From contig JAHBYC010000024.1 in NCBI GenBank assembly GCA_019636175.1, positions 1 through 40,959 of the forward strand: a stretch of DNA of 40,959 nucleotides, given 5' to 3'. Numbering within the stretch: the first letter of the stretch is position 1; every line of letters starts with the position of its first letter. Positions 18,697 through 22,367 of the stretch are shown here, one piece after another. The position numbers were made by a program, and so were the translations under genes. This DNA comes from Caulobacter sp. (GTDB taxonomy: Bacteria; Pseudomonadota; Alphaproteobacteria; Caulobacterales; Caulobacteraceae). The notes under the pieces were generated by a model that did not search any database, was not told the origin of the DNA, and saw only the letters and a program-made list of their open reading frames with translations.

Positions 18697-19524
18697 TCAA
18701 CCCTTCTTCGAAAAATAGGTCTCCGCCTCGGCCGGGAAGGCGCGGGCCTTGACGTCGGCGGCGTATCGGGCGGCCGCCTCGCCGATTTCGCCGCGCAGGT
18801 CGGCGTAGCGGCGCACGAACTTGGGGGTCCAGTCGAACAGGCCCAGCATGTCGTCTGTGACCAGGATCTGGCCATCGCAGCCGGCGCTGGCGCCGATGCC
18901 GATGGTGGGCGGGGCGATGGCGGCGGTGATGTCCCGGGCCAGCCCCTCGGCGACCCCCTCGACCACCACGGCGAAGGCGCCGGCCTCGGCGGTGGCGGCG
19001 GCCTCGGCGATGATCCGGTTGTGGCTGGTCTCGTCACGCCCCTTGGCCTTGAAGCCGCCGTCGACCAGCACCGCCTGGGGCCGCAACCCGACATGGCCCA
19101 TCACCGGGATGCCGCGCTGGACCATGTAGTGGATGGTGTCGGGCACGGTCGGTCCGCTCTCGACCTTCACCGCCTGGGCGCCGGTTTCCTTCATGATGCG
19201 GGCGGCGTTGGCGTAGGCCTCCTCCGCGCTGCCCTCGTAGGATCCGAAGGGCATGTCGACCACCACCATGGCCCGGCGCGAGCCGCGCATCACCGCCTGG
19301 CCGTGCAGGATCATCATCTCCATGGTCACCCCCACCGTATTGGGCAGGCCGTGCACCACCATCCCGACGCTGTCGCCAACCAGCAGCAGATCGCAGTGGT
19401 CATCGAGGATGGCCGCGATCGGGGCGGTGTAGGCGGTGAGGCAGACAATGGGCTCGCCGCCCTTGCGGGCGGCGATATCCGGCGCCGCGAGACGCCGGAC
19501 GCTTTCCTGACGATGCGAAGACAG
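18697..19524 (-). CDS. panB: PanB, ketopantoate hydroxymethyltransferase (probable CTG start)
   Basis: Transfers a hydroxymethyl group from methylenetetrahydrofolate to ketoisovalerate, the first committed step of pantothenate synthesis. Family blocks are [57 protein letters not shown] and the catalytic glutamate region AVVVEGV. The decamer-forming (beta/alpha)8 length is normal (275 residues). No ATG, GTG or TTG lies in frame near the expected N terminus. CTG 19524 gives [12 protein letters not shown], is preceded by AGGAG eight bases upstream and lies two bases after the stop of the preceding gene. The only upstream alternative (19596) would overlap that gene by 70 bases. Confidence 0.93.
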
Positions 19525-19526
19525 AA

Positions 19527-19910
19527 CTAGAACTCCTGGGTGGCCCGGGTAATGGCGAAGCCAAGGGCTGTAACACCCAGAGCCGCCGTCATCCACAGCA
19601 CTTCAGGGCTGACCGGCAGGGCGCCCATGTTCGAGCTGGCCGAGACCAGTTGTTCCCAGACCTTGCCCGCCGTGCTCGCCTGCTGGCTGGCCTCGACCCC
19701 GGCGGCCTTCAGGAAGACCCCGGCGCTCATCAGCTGGCTGGCGCCGAACAGACCCGCGACGATCCCCGCCGCGCCGATGAACAGACGCCGGATCGACCAG
19801 CCGCGCTCCAGCCGGGATTCGACCTTGCGGGCGAAGCCCTCTGCGTCCTCGAAATGCGGCGGTTCGGCGAACAGCCGGTCCAGCCGGGTTTCGAACTCAA
19901 GATCAGACAT
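19527..19910 (-). CDS. Two-helix membrane protein, putative anti-sigma factor (cassette B)
   Basis: A 127-residue protein with a cytosolic N-terminal part of about 45 residues ([18 protein letters not shown]...), a membrane helix (about 47-65) and a second helix near the C terminus (about 107-123). Its start overlaps the end of the ECF sigma gene by eight bases, as is usual for sigma/anti-sigma pairs. The N-terminal half resembles the protein at 21007-21309 in the same relative position: a LF/FF segment, a charged stretch, then an R-rich turn before helix 1. No zinc-binding anti-sigma motif (HxxxCxxC) is present, so assignment as anti-sigma factor rests on position and topology. panB follows directly. 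Confidence 0.78.
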
Positions 19911-20478
19911 GACCCTGCCTTTCCGCATCGCGCCCCGCGCCTTCAGCAGGCGCAAGTCGGAGCCGGAGTTTATCCAAACCACGTTTGACATGGGACTTCA
20001 CCGTTCCCAAGGGGGCGCCGATGGTTTCCGCCGCTTCCGCGTGAGAAAGTCCTGCGCCGTAACATAAAGACACACACAAACGTTCCTGTTCGGACAGGCT
20101 CTTCATGGCCTCGTCCAGATCGATGCGGCTGGCGGCCGAAACCTCCCCGCCGTGACCTTCGTCGTCGGCCTCGACCTCCTCGGTCATCCGGCTGTCCTTG
20201 CGCCAGCGACGCACATAGAGCCGGGCGGCGATCCGTTTGACCCAGGCGGCGAAGGCGCCCTCGCCGCGGAACTCCGCGACCCGCTCGAAGGCGGTGAGAA
20301 AGGCGTCCTGAGCGATGTCGTCGGCGGTGGAGGGTTGCGCGCCCATCCGCCGCAAAAGGCCCCGGACGGCCGAACCATGGCGACGAACCAGTTCGCCGAA
20401 GGCCGCCCGGTCGCCCGCCGCCGCGAGGGCGGCGAGCTCGACATCATGCAGTCCTGTGACAGCCCTTGATGGGGCCAT
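19903..20478 (-). CDS. ECF-type RNA polymerase sigma factor (cassette B)
   Basis: A 191-residue extracytoplasmic-function sigma factor. Region 2 (about 25-95) includes the DDIAQDAFLTAFERVAEFRG core that binds RNA polymerase and the -10 element, and region 4 (about 130-180) ends with the helix-turn-helix LSHAEAAETIGAPLGTVKSHVKRG (in two parts). A short acidic linker (EVEADDEGHGG) joins them. There is no C-terminal extension. The downstream overlapping gene encodes a membrane protein probably acting as anti-sigma factor, and the upstream gene (39 bases away) is DUF6249-like. A near-identical gene order recurs at 21007-22264. Confidence 0.95.
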   Translation of the reverse strand: MAPSRAVTGLHDVELAALAAAGDRAAFGELVRRHGSAVRGLLRRMGAQPSTADDIAQDAFLTAFERVAEFRGEGAFAAWVKRIAARLYVRRWRKDSRMTEEVEADDEGHGGEVSAASRIDLDEAMKSLSEQERLCVSLCYGAGLSHAEAAETIGAPLGTVKSHVKRGLDKLRLRLAPAEGAGRDAERQGHV

Positions 20479-20517
20479 TGCGAAGTCTCCCCCTCGCTGT
20501 TCAGCGCCAGACCGGGG

Positions 20518-20892
20518 CTACTTGCCCTTGTTGGGGTTGAAGAAGCTGAGGACGATGAAGGCGAGGCCAATGATCACCGGGATGCCGGCGATGCCCATCA
20601 GCGGATAGTGGGCGTCGGCGTTCTCATAGCTGACCATGAAGCCGAACAGTCCCAGGCCCACCCCGACGGCGACCCAGATGACGCCGGTCCGGATGTCGCT
20701 GACCGCCGTGGCCTGAGCCTTCACCGGCTTGGTCATGGCGTCGATCATTTCCTGCGGCACCGGTTGGCCCTTGTCGATGGCGGAGCGCAAGGTGGCCTGC
20801 ATTTCGCGCCGCTCCTGGCTCTTGAGGTAGGACGGCACGATCACGATGGCCGCGATCATCGCGAAGAAGACAATGGGGATCCAGACTTCCAT
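20518..20892 (-). CDS. DUF6249-like membrane protein (cassette B)
   Basis: A 124-residue membrane protein: helix 1 at about 5-22, a cytosolic stretch with the characteristic segment LRSAIDKGQPVPQEMID (about 36-52), then two helices (about 70-90 and 98-115) and a basic end (NPNKGK). The DKGQ-P-P-E pattern recalls the DUF6249 family and is shared with the protein at 21827-22264 (YADKGQEPPAELM). ATG 20892 has the ribosome site AAGGAG; the open frame upstream lacks family features. It precedes an ECF sigma factor gene, so it may be part of its signalling circuit. Confidence 0.82.
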   Translation of the reverse strand: MEVWIPIVFFAMIAAIVIVPSYLKSQERREMQATLRSAIDKGQPVPQEMIDAMTKPVKAQATAVSDIRTGVIWVAVGVGLGLFGFMVSYENADAHYPLMGIAGIPVIIGLAFIVLSFFNPNKGK

Positions 20893-21006
20893 CAGTTTGC
20901 TCCTTGGAAACTTGCATGACGCCGCGCCTTGCGTGCGCCTTATGACCATGAGAGGCGCCAAGGGACCCATTCGGATGCGGCAGGCGGCATGAATAGTTCG
21001 TAAGGC

Positions 21007-21309
21007 TCAGGCCTTGCGCAGCATCCGCTCGCCCAGCCCGACCAGACTGAGGGTCGCGACCAGCAATCCGGTCCCGGCCAACAGGGACTGTGACAGCGGC
21101 TCCAGCGCGGTCGCCAGCACCGGCGCGGTCGCCCACAGCGCCACCCCGCCGCCAAGCGCGAGGACAGCGCCGGTGAGCAGGGCCCGAACCAGTTCCCGCC
21201 GCGCCACACGCTCCATGACCGCCGCATTGAAGGCCGGCGCGGCCGCCGGCGCGCGATCGGCGTCGAAGAAGGCGGCGAGCTTTTCGTCAGGGGTCATCGG
21301 CGGGGTCAT
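21007..21309 (-). CDS. Two-helix membrane protein, putative anti-sigma factor (cassette A)
   Basis: A 100-residue protein with a cytosolic N terminus (MTPPMTPDEKLAAFFDAD...), about 45 residues long, then two membrane helices (about 46-63 and 73-92) and the end ERMLRKA. Its ATG overlaps the sigma-factor stop in ATGA. It resembles the protein at 19527-19910 in position, N-terminal pattern and topology. It has no zinc-binding anti-sigma motif. An alternative is an unrelated membrane partner; the coupling to the sigma gene makes anti-sigma activity the simplest reading. Confidence 0.78.
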   Translation of the reverse strand: MTPPMTPDEKLAAFFDADRAPAAAPAFNAAVMERVARRELVRALLTGAVLALGGGVALWATAPVLATALEPLSQSLLAGTGLLVATLSLVGLGERMLRKA

Positions 21310-21827
21310 GAGCACGCTCCCAGTTCACTCAGCAGTCTATCGCGTCCGCGCGTCACATGCGACTTCACCGTCCCCAGCGGCAGGCCCAGCATCTCCGCGG
21401 CCTCGCCATGCGACCACCCCTCGCCCAGGCAAAGCGCCACCGCCGCCCTCTGGTCGTCGGGCAGCGCCGCCAGGGCCTTCTCAAGCGCCATGCGATCTTC
21501 GGGCGCCAGCTCAGACCCGCGCTCAAGGTCCTGCGCCTCGATCCACTGCCCGCCGCGCCGGGCCGCCCGCTGGCCCGAGCGCGCGGCCGTCATCGCCTTG
21601 CGGTGAGCGATGCCGAACAGCCATGGCCGGAAGCCGGCGTCATCGCGAAGCCGCCGAAGCATCGACCAGGCGGTGACGAAGGCCTCCTGGGCGATGTCGT
21701 CCGCCTCGACCCAGGAGCCGTGAGTGCGGCTCAGGAAACTCCGCAGCGCCTGCTGGTGACGGTCCACCAGCCGGGCGAAGGCGGCCTGGGACCCGTCCCT
21801 GGCCGCCCGCACCAGGGCGGCGTCCAT
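21306..21827 (-). CDS. ECF-type RNA polymerase sigma factor (cassette A)
   Basis: A 173-residue ECF sigma factor. Region 2 (about 12-80) contains EADDIAQEAFVTAWSMLRRLRDD followed by PWLFGIAHRKAMTAAR (first split here for length), and region 4 (about 115-165) has the helix-turn-helix WSHGEAAEMLGLPLGTVKSH. Both regions are complete, with no extra domain. Its start shares an A with the stop of the DUF6249-like gene (TGATG), and its stop overlaps the start of the two-helix membrane protein (ATGA). The three genes are thus translationally coupled. Its region 4 resembles that of the sigma factor at 19903-20478 (PLGTVKSHV in both). Confidence 0.95.
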   Translation of the reverse strand: MDAALVRAARDGSQAAFARLVDRHQQALRSFLSRTHGSWVEADDIAQEAFVTAWSMLRRLRDDAGFRPWLFGIAHRKAMTAARSGQRAARRGGQWIEAQDLERGSELAPEDRMALEKALAALPDDQRAAVALCLGEGWSHGEAAEMLGLPLGTVKSHVTRGRDRLLSELGACS

Positions 21828-22264
21828 CAGTCACGCCGGGTGGTCAGCGTGGTGACCAGCGAGGCCAGGCACAGGGCGGTCATCACGAAGGTGACGATTA
21901 CGAAGGCTTCGCCCGCGCCGTAGATGTCCTGGAAGCTGGCGTAGCCGAAGCCGACCGCCATGACCCCGAACAGCACCACCGAATACCAGCCGCCGCCGCG
22001 GCCATAGCGATAGTAGCGCCGACGGCGGCGGCGACTGATGCGGTCGTCGCCGTCATCGTCATCGAGGTCTTCGACGGCGCCGTCACGGCCGCCCAGACGC
22101 TTCATCAGTTCGGCCGGCGGCTCCTGGCCCTTGTCGGCGTAGGTCTTGATCAGGTTCAGGGTGTCGCGGTGCCGCTGATAGCGCAGAATCTGGTCCACCG
22201 ATCCGGCCACGAACCAGGCCAGCGGGAACAGCAACCACCAGTAGGATCGGAACAGGTCTTCCAT
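21827..22264 (-). CDS. DUF6249-like membrane protein (cassette A)
   Basis: A 145-residue membrane protein. Helix 1 is at about 8-24, then a cytosolic segment with LIKTYADKGQEPPAELMKR (about 39-57), as in the protein at 20518-20892. Next comes a striking charge switch, seven acidic residues (EDLDDDDGDD) directly followed by a run of six arginines and a Tyr/Gly stretch (about 67-90). Two further helices follow (about 93-110 and 118-138). The charge pair could be a protein-protein or nucleic-acid contact; this is inference. A ribosome site GGAG precedes ATG 22264. It is the first gene of the translationally coupled trio with the ECF sigma factor. Confidence 0.82.
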   Translation of the reverse strand: MEDLFRSYWWLLFPLAWFVAGSVDQILRYQRHRDTLNLIKTYADKGQEPPAELMKRLGGRDGAVEDLDDDDGDDRISRRRRRRYYRYGRGGGWYSVVLFGVMAVGFGYASFQDIYGAGEAFVIVTFVMTALCLASLVTTLTTRRD

Positions 22265-22367
22265 CGTCAGATTTCTCCAGCCCCGGAACGATCATCGCCC
22301 GGTTTTGCAGAATAGTCGCCGCCAGTCGCCGCCCTGGATGCAGGCGGCGCCAATTTATTTTCAGCGC

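Follow-up and report, generated by a model that had tools for sequence, protein, structure and literature searches.

Two tandem DUF6249–ECF sigma factor–small membrane protein trios of Caulobacter as candidate membrane-linked sigma factor circuits

In the Acinetobacter system SigAb-AabA (PMC12153292), the anti-sigma factor AabA is a protein of 107 residues with a membrane helix at positions 42–64, and its cytoplasmic part alone inhibits SigAb, a self-regulated extracytoplasmic function (ECF) sigma factor with three direct targets and a promoter that has a 17-base spacer and an A/T tract, possibly an UP element. In Caulobacter, the ECF sigma factor SigF is accompanied by the negative regulator NrsF, a DUF1109 protein with six membrane helices (PMC3511200), and the class II anti-sigma factor CnrY wraps the sigma factor CnrH with its two helices (PMC7406223). 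Here, these systems are compared with a pair of gene trios, each encoding a DUF6249-like membrane protein, an ECF sigma factor and a small two-helix membrane protein, located in a stretch of 40,959 nucleotides from Caulobacter sp. (contig JAHBYC010000024.1, GenBank assembly GCA_019636175.1) that is referred to below as the window.

The two trios, A and B, lie head to tail on the minus strand, as described in an earlier note on this DNA, and all six genes are present. Trio A consists of A1 (21827..22264, 145 residues), DUF6249-like by a weak Pfam score and a profile-profile match, A2 (21306..21827, 173 residues), an ECF sigma factor with Sigma70_r2 and r4_2 over the cut-off, and A3 (21007..21309, 100 residues), a small two-helix membrane protein and, from profile comparisons, a candidate anti-sigma factor. 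Trio B consists of the DUF6249 membrane protein B1 (20518..20892, 124 residues; PF19762, E 1.9e-16), the ECF sigma factor B2 (19903..20478, 191 residues; sigma-70 families over the cut-off), and B3 (19527..19910, 127 residues), which is of the same kind as A3 and is a candidate anti-sigma factor from profiles and a predicted model. The gene couplings are also as had been claimed: TGATG at A1/A2, ATGA at A2/A3, a 39-base gap at B1/B2 and an 8-base overlap at B2/B3. The SigAb-AabA-AabB operon shares with the trios an ECF sigma factor, an overlapping gene for a (in the trios, candidate) small membrane anti-sigma factor and a third operon component, as well as the 17-base spacer and a possible UP-element tract; its self-regulation and very small direct regulon also resemble what is proposed for the trios. 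The likeness is one of format. AabB is predicted to be periplasmic, unlike DUF6249, the sigma gene comes first and the promoter reads GTCAAC/CGTT. SigF-NrsF resembles the trios as a Caulobacter ECF sigma factor whose negative regulator lies mostly in the membrane, but with six membrane helices (DUF1109) against two in A3 and B3. The sensor of the CnrY-CnrH system is CnrX, which is not a DUF6249 protein. CnrY itself is like the B3 model in its two short cytoplasmic helices, and no sequence match between them was found.

SigAb-AabA is the closest worked example, and the same logic is proposed for the trios: we consider it rather likely that each trio is a self-contained, self-regulated, membrane-linked ECF circuit with a minimal anti-sigma factor and a DUF6249 protein as third component. 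A2 and B2 would be held at the inner membrane by A3 and B3, in which a cytoplasmic N-terminus of about 40 residues would fold into a pair of short helices ahead of membrane helix 1; A1 and B1, as three-helix membrane proteins, would either relay a signal to the anti-sigma factor or be the product that is kept in balance; and the released sigma factor would direct transcription of the operon that encodes it, starting from a promoter with the GCATCC element.

The linkage of the three genes was followed in genome sets of increasing breadth. DUF6249 was matched in 139 of 149 Caulobacteraceae genomes, in 133 of them over the cut-off, and all 29 Caulobacteraceae DUF6249 loci that were viewed (L002–L030) show the order B1-B2-B3. 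Among 289 Alphaproteobacteria genomes the family was matched in 14, three of the 14 being the source genome and two others of its family. In 299 Pseudomonadota genomes it was matched in 21, of which 16 were over the cut-off and 7 of these belonged to Caulobacteraceae; at the over-cut-off loci an ECF gene came next on the same strand in 16/16 and a member of the third-protein family followed in 15/16 (9/9 and 8/9, respectively, outside Caulobacteraceae). Seven of the 15 third proteins are themselves rows of the model built from outside proteins, the other family models having been built from Caulobacteraceae. Because an ECF gene adjoins it at every one of these loci, over-cut-off DUF6249 is an ECF-linked family in this sample. 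The weaker matches number seven, from five additional genomes and, as second matches, from G569 and G646; four of them adjoin an ECF gene, in three cases in divergent orientation. The linkage goes beyond coincidence, and these counts support the DUF6249 protein as a real third component of the unit. At three loci (L189, L191, L193), weak DUF6249-like genes are divergent from an ECF gene of another clade.

The third proteins A3 and B3 give no meaningful BLAST match with each other. Alignments of 47 A3-type, 75 B3-type and 18 outside proteins were compared as profiles: A3 matches B3 over the N-terminus and first helix (probability 93, E 3.3e-7), and the outside set matches both the A3 set (97.6, E 3.6e-12) and the B3 set (97.9, E 3.2e-13), against 5.8 and E 0.0066 in the control comparison with DUF6249. 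On these profiles the third proteins are one fast-evolving family. They have in common a short pattern in which a helix carrying L..LF or a like sequence is followed by D..F...V, in most of them by a segment rich in arginine, and then by membrane helix 1. The outside-set model found 24 places in the 299 Pseudomonadota genomes; all 15 with E < 1e-5 lie in modules, and eight of them are not among the loci from which the model was built. Neither A3 nor B3 contains cysteine, and therefore the HxxxCxxC zinc motif of class I is absent, in agreement with the earlier note. That note had also raised the possibility of an undescribed type of membrane anti-sigma circuit; the family of the third proteins does touch a named Pfam family, DUF5056 (PF16479, cut-off 28 bits), to which no function has been assigned. 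DUF5056 was weakly matched by 8 of the 47 A3 relatives (E up to 0.1), was not listed among the matches of the 75 B3 relatives, and was matched by 6 of 10 outside third proteins (E up to 1), one of which, at L185, passes with 28.9 bits and also passes a second, unrelated model, PF13796, at 29.1. In the 299 genomes DUF5056 was matched three times, once over the cut-off, and all three matches lie inside modules.

The model of B3 (mean predicted local distance difference test (pLDDT) score 78.7) has helices at residues 3–15 and 23–62 and a last helix at 102–126; the second of these runs into membrane helix 1, with pLDDT 87–93 over residues 1–60 of this monomer model. The format of a class II, CnrY-like protein, with two cytoplasmic helices before the membrane helix, is thus found in the predicted B3 structure, and A3 and B3 are probably minimal membrane anti-sigma factors, to judge from the model and by analogy.

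Both sigma factors contain only sigma-70 regions 2 and 4 (PF04542 and PF08281/PF04545 over the cut-off) and also exceed the cut-off of TIGR02937; they are about 41% identical. A2 is the nearest relative of B2 found in its own genome (109 bits, the next 63; the genome is 87% complete). In the sigma tree, A2 falls in a clade (support 97/81) made up of 25 rows that are Caulobacteraceae or unplaced Alphaproteobacteria and of a single row belonging to a different family of the order; this single row leaves the clade in the tree that includes RpoE8 of S. meliloti. B2 falls in a group of 19 rows (support 80/0), including one that belongs to a different family of the class, and for this group the Shimodaira–Hasegawa-like approximate likelihood ratio test gave 98 in the first tree and in the tree with RpoE8. 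The deep branching order had no resolution, and a topology holding A2 and B2 together was not rejected (approximately unbiased (AU) test, p 0.218). Of 235 confirmed B2 relatives the best 80 were kept. The first tree used 14 of 44 A2 rows, 14 of 110 B2 rows and 46 of 54 other sigma factors, leaving out the rows of L133, L134, L137, L144, L146 and L150, and in the second tree seven long-branch rows were dropped. RpoE8, an ECF29 member, lies outside the module sigma factors, with at most 28% identity and a very long branch, and no DUF6249 or third-protein match was found in the 5 kb around it; membership of A2 and B2 in ECF29 looks doubtful. Two Rhizobium sigma factors considered as candidate ECF29 members were set aside, their neighbour being a VWA-domain gene, and for SigV of C. 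vibrioides (CCNA_02837, beside an EF-hand gene) no link to the DUF6249-ECF unit was seen in the part of the literature consulted.

These sigma groups bear directly on the origin of the tandem, for which the earlier note had suggested duplication followed by divergence. The trios are indeed paralogous, but a local event is contradicted, since they fall in separate sigma groups, each of which spans the family. Gene order was compared in 111 sources (110 loci plus the window, which one of the loci, L001, repeats): B1-B2-B3 stands alone in 59, the full double cassette occurs in 22, in 19 the double cassette is preceded by an additional short A1-like gene, and 11 have other or cut-off arrangements. 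The third gene of trio A was matched in 57 of the 149 Caulobacteraceae genomes, some of the weak matches being third genes of further cassettes; matches above 65 bits were obtained in 36 genomes, and by hand count 34 of these have the gene immediately 5' of B1 in the same orientation, the two exceptions having the genes on different contigs (G125) or in reversed order (G043). In genus g15 the A modules stand apart from trio B (L131–L139, nine genomes); DUF6249 was not matched in two of the nine, G080 and G124. A recent local duplication in this Caulobacter lineage would be in keeping with A2 as the nearest paralogue of B2 found in the genome, but trios A and B each occur family-wide with their own sigma groups and are separated in genus g15; this origin is so improbable that we regard it as ruled out by the family-wide trio A and the separate sigma groups. 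Both sigma lineages run through Caulobacteraceae, which on phylogenetic grounds makes the tandem old. Any duplication of the trios would have been ancestral, sisterhood of the two sigma groups not being rejected in the AU test.

Some further arrangements were observed at individual loci. In G043 the modules at L140 are reversed, B then A, and the same genome has two further modules (L141 and L142). A third, unlinked A-type module (L145) was seen in G022, a relative from the same genus. In genus g3 (L122, L146, L147) about 0.6–1 kb separates A3 from B1, against 0.1 kb in the window.

Each operon is preceded on the minus strand by a promoter-like block, GCATCC, 17 nucleotides and CGACTA for A (22313..22341) and GCATCC, 17 nucleotides and CCTCTC for B (20950..20978). 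About ten to twelve bases further upstream of the GCATCC block lies an A/T-rich element. In the window, the tract 5' of the A block (22352..22361, minus strand) is UP-like, or forms the -35 region in the alternative reading given below, and several relatives show GAAATTATTTC at its place; 5' of the B block the window has TTACGAACTATTCAT (20989..21003, minus strand), where relatives carry TTACGAANNTTTCAT. Six-mers were counted at any position in the upstream stretches of about 170 bases (36 A and 108 B), each of which had an identified start codon and a length of 150 bases or more. In the A stretches GCATCC was present in 36/36 and CGACTA in 30/36, the top shuffled six-mer reaching 12/36; in the B stretches exact GCATCC was present in 71/108 and GCCTCT in 82/108, against 20/108 for the top shuffled six-mer, and GC[AC]TC[CT] occurred somewhere in all 108. 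With the spacing included, GC[AC]TCC, 16–18 bases and [CG]GA[CT][TC] was found before 36 of 42 A operons, and GC[AC]TC[CT], 17 bases and [CG]CTC[CT] in 89 of 109 B upstream stretches. For modules outside the family, TGCATC[CT], 14–18 bases and GC[AG]TC[TA] was found in 10 of 20 upstream regions and in none of 500 shuffle rounds, although this pattern was written after the regions had been viewed, a choice that the shuffles do not cover; when these loci were divided into 1050 tiles, upstream regions included, 12 tiles contained it. This set contains two loci of one genus (L113 and L190) and three of another (L115, L118 and L119), and L143 has the motif but was missed in the count because the assigned start cut it off. 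The A and B operons share GCATCC and differ in the element that follows after 17 bases; as to the possible cross-talk raised in the note, this combination would suit overlapping circuits as well as insulated ones.

Which of the two elements serves as -35 and which as -10 is less certain. Modules from further classes of the phylum (L184 and L185) also retain the pair, and for this reason GCATCC is preferred as the -35 element. At the same time, both assignments were retained because the promoter of ECF29 uses GCATCCAA as its -10; that promoter is GGGAAC / GCATCCAA (PMC6180224), the second element being the one that likens ECF29 to the module. Among published occurrences of TGCATCC or GCATCC, one is an oligonucleotide and another is this promoter. 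By that published example GCATCC would be the -10 element, GAA..TTTC the -35, and the downstream element something else, and the B copy of the window indeed has GAA 21 bases before GCATCC, reading CGAACTATTC. However, TGCATC[CT] and its downstream partner are kept in other families and classes, the GAA element is, by eye, only A/T-rich in most outside modules, and RpoE8 stands apart from the module sigma factors as described above. So, the ECF29-like assignment is a possibility that we hold to be the weaker one.

The genomic distribution of these elements is relevant to the role of DUF6249. Of 119 Caulobacteraceae genomes, 21 have a single occurrence of the strict form of TTACGAANNTTTCAT, against two places for the reversed control, and in 21/21 it lies just upstream of B1; the window copy is one base off and is not a match. 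For the strict A pattern 61 places were found in 26 genomes, the reversed control giving 37, and the A block of the window is one of three matches in its genome, whereas the strict B pattern stayed near chance (20 places against 14) and missed the B block of the window. No other promoter targets were recognised in these strict-pattern scans, in which the A- and B-pattern hits were not each placed. It may be that DUF6249 is the output and not the sensor, the circuit balancing its amount and the operon being nearly the whole regulon. In agreement with this, the first gene after the promoter block is DUF6249 or its short copy in the loci examined; the B1-specific TTACGAANNTTTCAT places and the excess of 24 A-pattern places over the control, of the order of one per genome, point the same way. 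On the other hand, strict patterns miss degenerate sites, the B pattern behaves almost randomly, and a narrow regulon cannot tell an output from a sensor; the output role is accordingly put forward only tentatively.

Several results weigh against the circuit proposed here, in which the third protein is the anti-sigma factor and DUF6249 its companion. Among the 14 Alphaproteobacteria an ECF gene adjoins DUF6249 in 12, the two weakest (G208 and G180) having none; these are two of the four weaker matches in that set, and three of the seven weaker matches in the phylum set likewise have no ECF gene beside them. At the one over-cut-off exception, G544, the third gene encodes a two-helix protein without the family motif, and of the nine weaker outside-set places only two lie in modules, seven not being beside a DUF6249 match. 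A3 and B3 of the window exceed the cut-off of no curated family, and DUF5056 is not listed for either. Sequence searches with the A3 and B3 profiles at E up to 10 listed 4 and 12 sequences, respectively, and neither CnrY nor any other solved anti-sigma factor was matched, and a Foldseek search of the B3 model against the PDB matched no solved structure. The uncertain order of the promoter elements is a further point of this kind. From the missing sequence relation to a solved anti-sigma factor it could be argued that the third protein accompanies DUF6249 in a structural role and that sigma activity is controlled by DUF6249 or at the level of transcription only, and the ECF29 sigma factor RpoE8, which differs from the module in having no known anti-sigma candidate (PMC6180224), could be cited as a precedent. 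But in both trios the end of the sigma gene runs into the third gene, and the alignments place the conserved part of the third protein in its cytoplasmic N-terminus and first helix, which makes the structural role improbable and leaves the anti-sigma function of A3 and B3 as the preferred explanation.

As for the DUF6249 proteins, B1 is a clear member of PF19762 (60.3 bits against a cut-off of 33), and A1 stays below it (15.7 bits); profile-profile comparison of the A1 and B1 sets gave a match (probability 97.2, E 3.4e-11), by which A1 is a divergent, distant relative of DUF6249. The B1 model has three long helices (pLDDT 86.4) and had no match in the PDB below E 0.001 by Foldseek, and a search for plasmid relatives of DUF6249 found none. 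From the charges around helix 1, the conserved loop G-Q-x-x-P-x-E of B1 is placed in the cytoplasm. The short extra A1-like gene (about 60 residues), seen directly 5' of A1 in the 19 sources counted above (L037, L039, L051, L063, L071 and L101 among them) and absent from the window, holds only the first membrane helix and the G-x-x-P-P segment, and the existence of such a copy suggests that this half of A1 works alone.

In the leader of the A operon (22262–22313 in the window, and in relatives; 26 of 36 leaders aligned) a small GC hairpin lies before the ribosome site, with 8 cells showing paired changes against 1.2 in shuffles, and some leaders also pair the ribosome site. The hairpin was rejected as a demonstrated regulator, the window copy not being stable beyond chance (z 0.31). 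Directly 3' of B3 lies a gene with an uncertain start codon (18697..19527, minus strand) that we take, from its sequence and not from a family search, to be panB-like; it is a syntenic neighbour, found just downstream of B3 on the same strand in 60 of the 75 loci with room to see it. Its synteny with trio B is conserved, and cotranscription is possibly the case.

The unit was not described in the ECF and Caulobacter literature that was searched, although the main ECF classification may already list the group; for DUF6249 only an unrelated plant-kinase context was found, and for DUF5056 nothing. In a set of 14 control genomes, Bacteroides ihuae matched both DUF5056 and DUF6249, and Caulobacter vibrioides is reported with a DUF6249 match, one of three control matches of which two, not specified, pass the cut-off. 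As a broader idea, which we offer with some doubt, DUF6249, an ECF sigma factor and a DUF5056-type minimal anti-sigma factor could form a widespread, undescribed class of circuits in Pseudomonadota and Bacteroidota, autonomous and mainly self-targeting, with two ancient Caulobacteraceae versions lying next to each other that share one promoter element, differ in another and would in this way stay related but insulated. Through this linkage, the Pfam families DUF6249 and DUF5056 are placed in a functional context for the first time, and a candidate minimal anti-sigma family comes into view that is not picked up by homology searches. Should the sigma factor act mainly on its own operon, the system would stand out among ECF systems for being centred on a single membrane protein, and, because a DUF6249 match is reported for C. 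vibrioides, the circuit is probably directly testable in this laboratory model.

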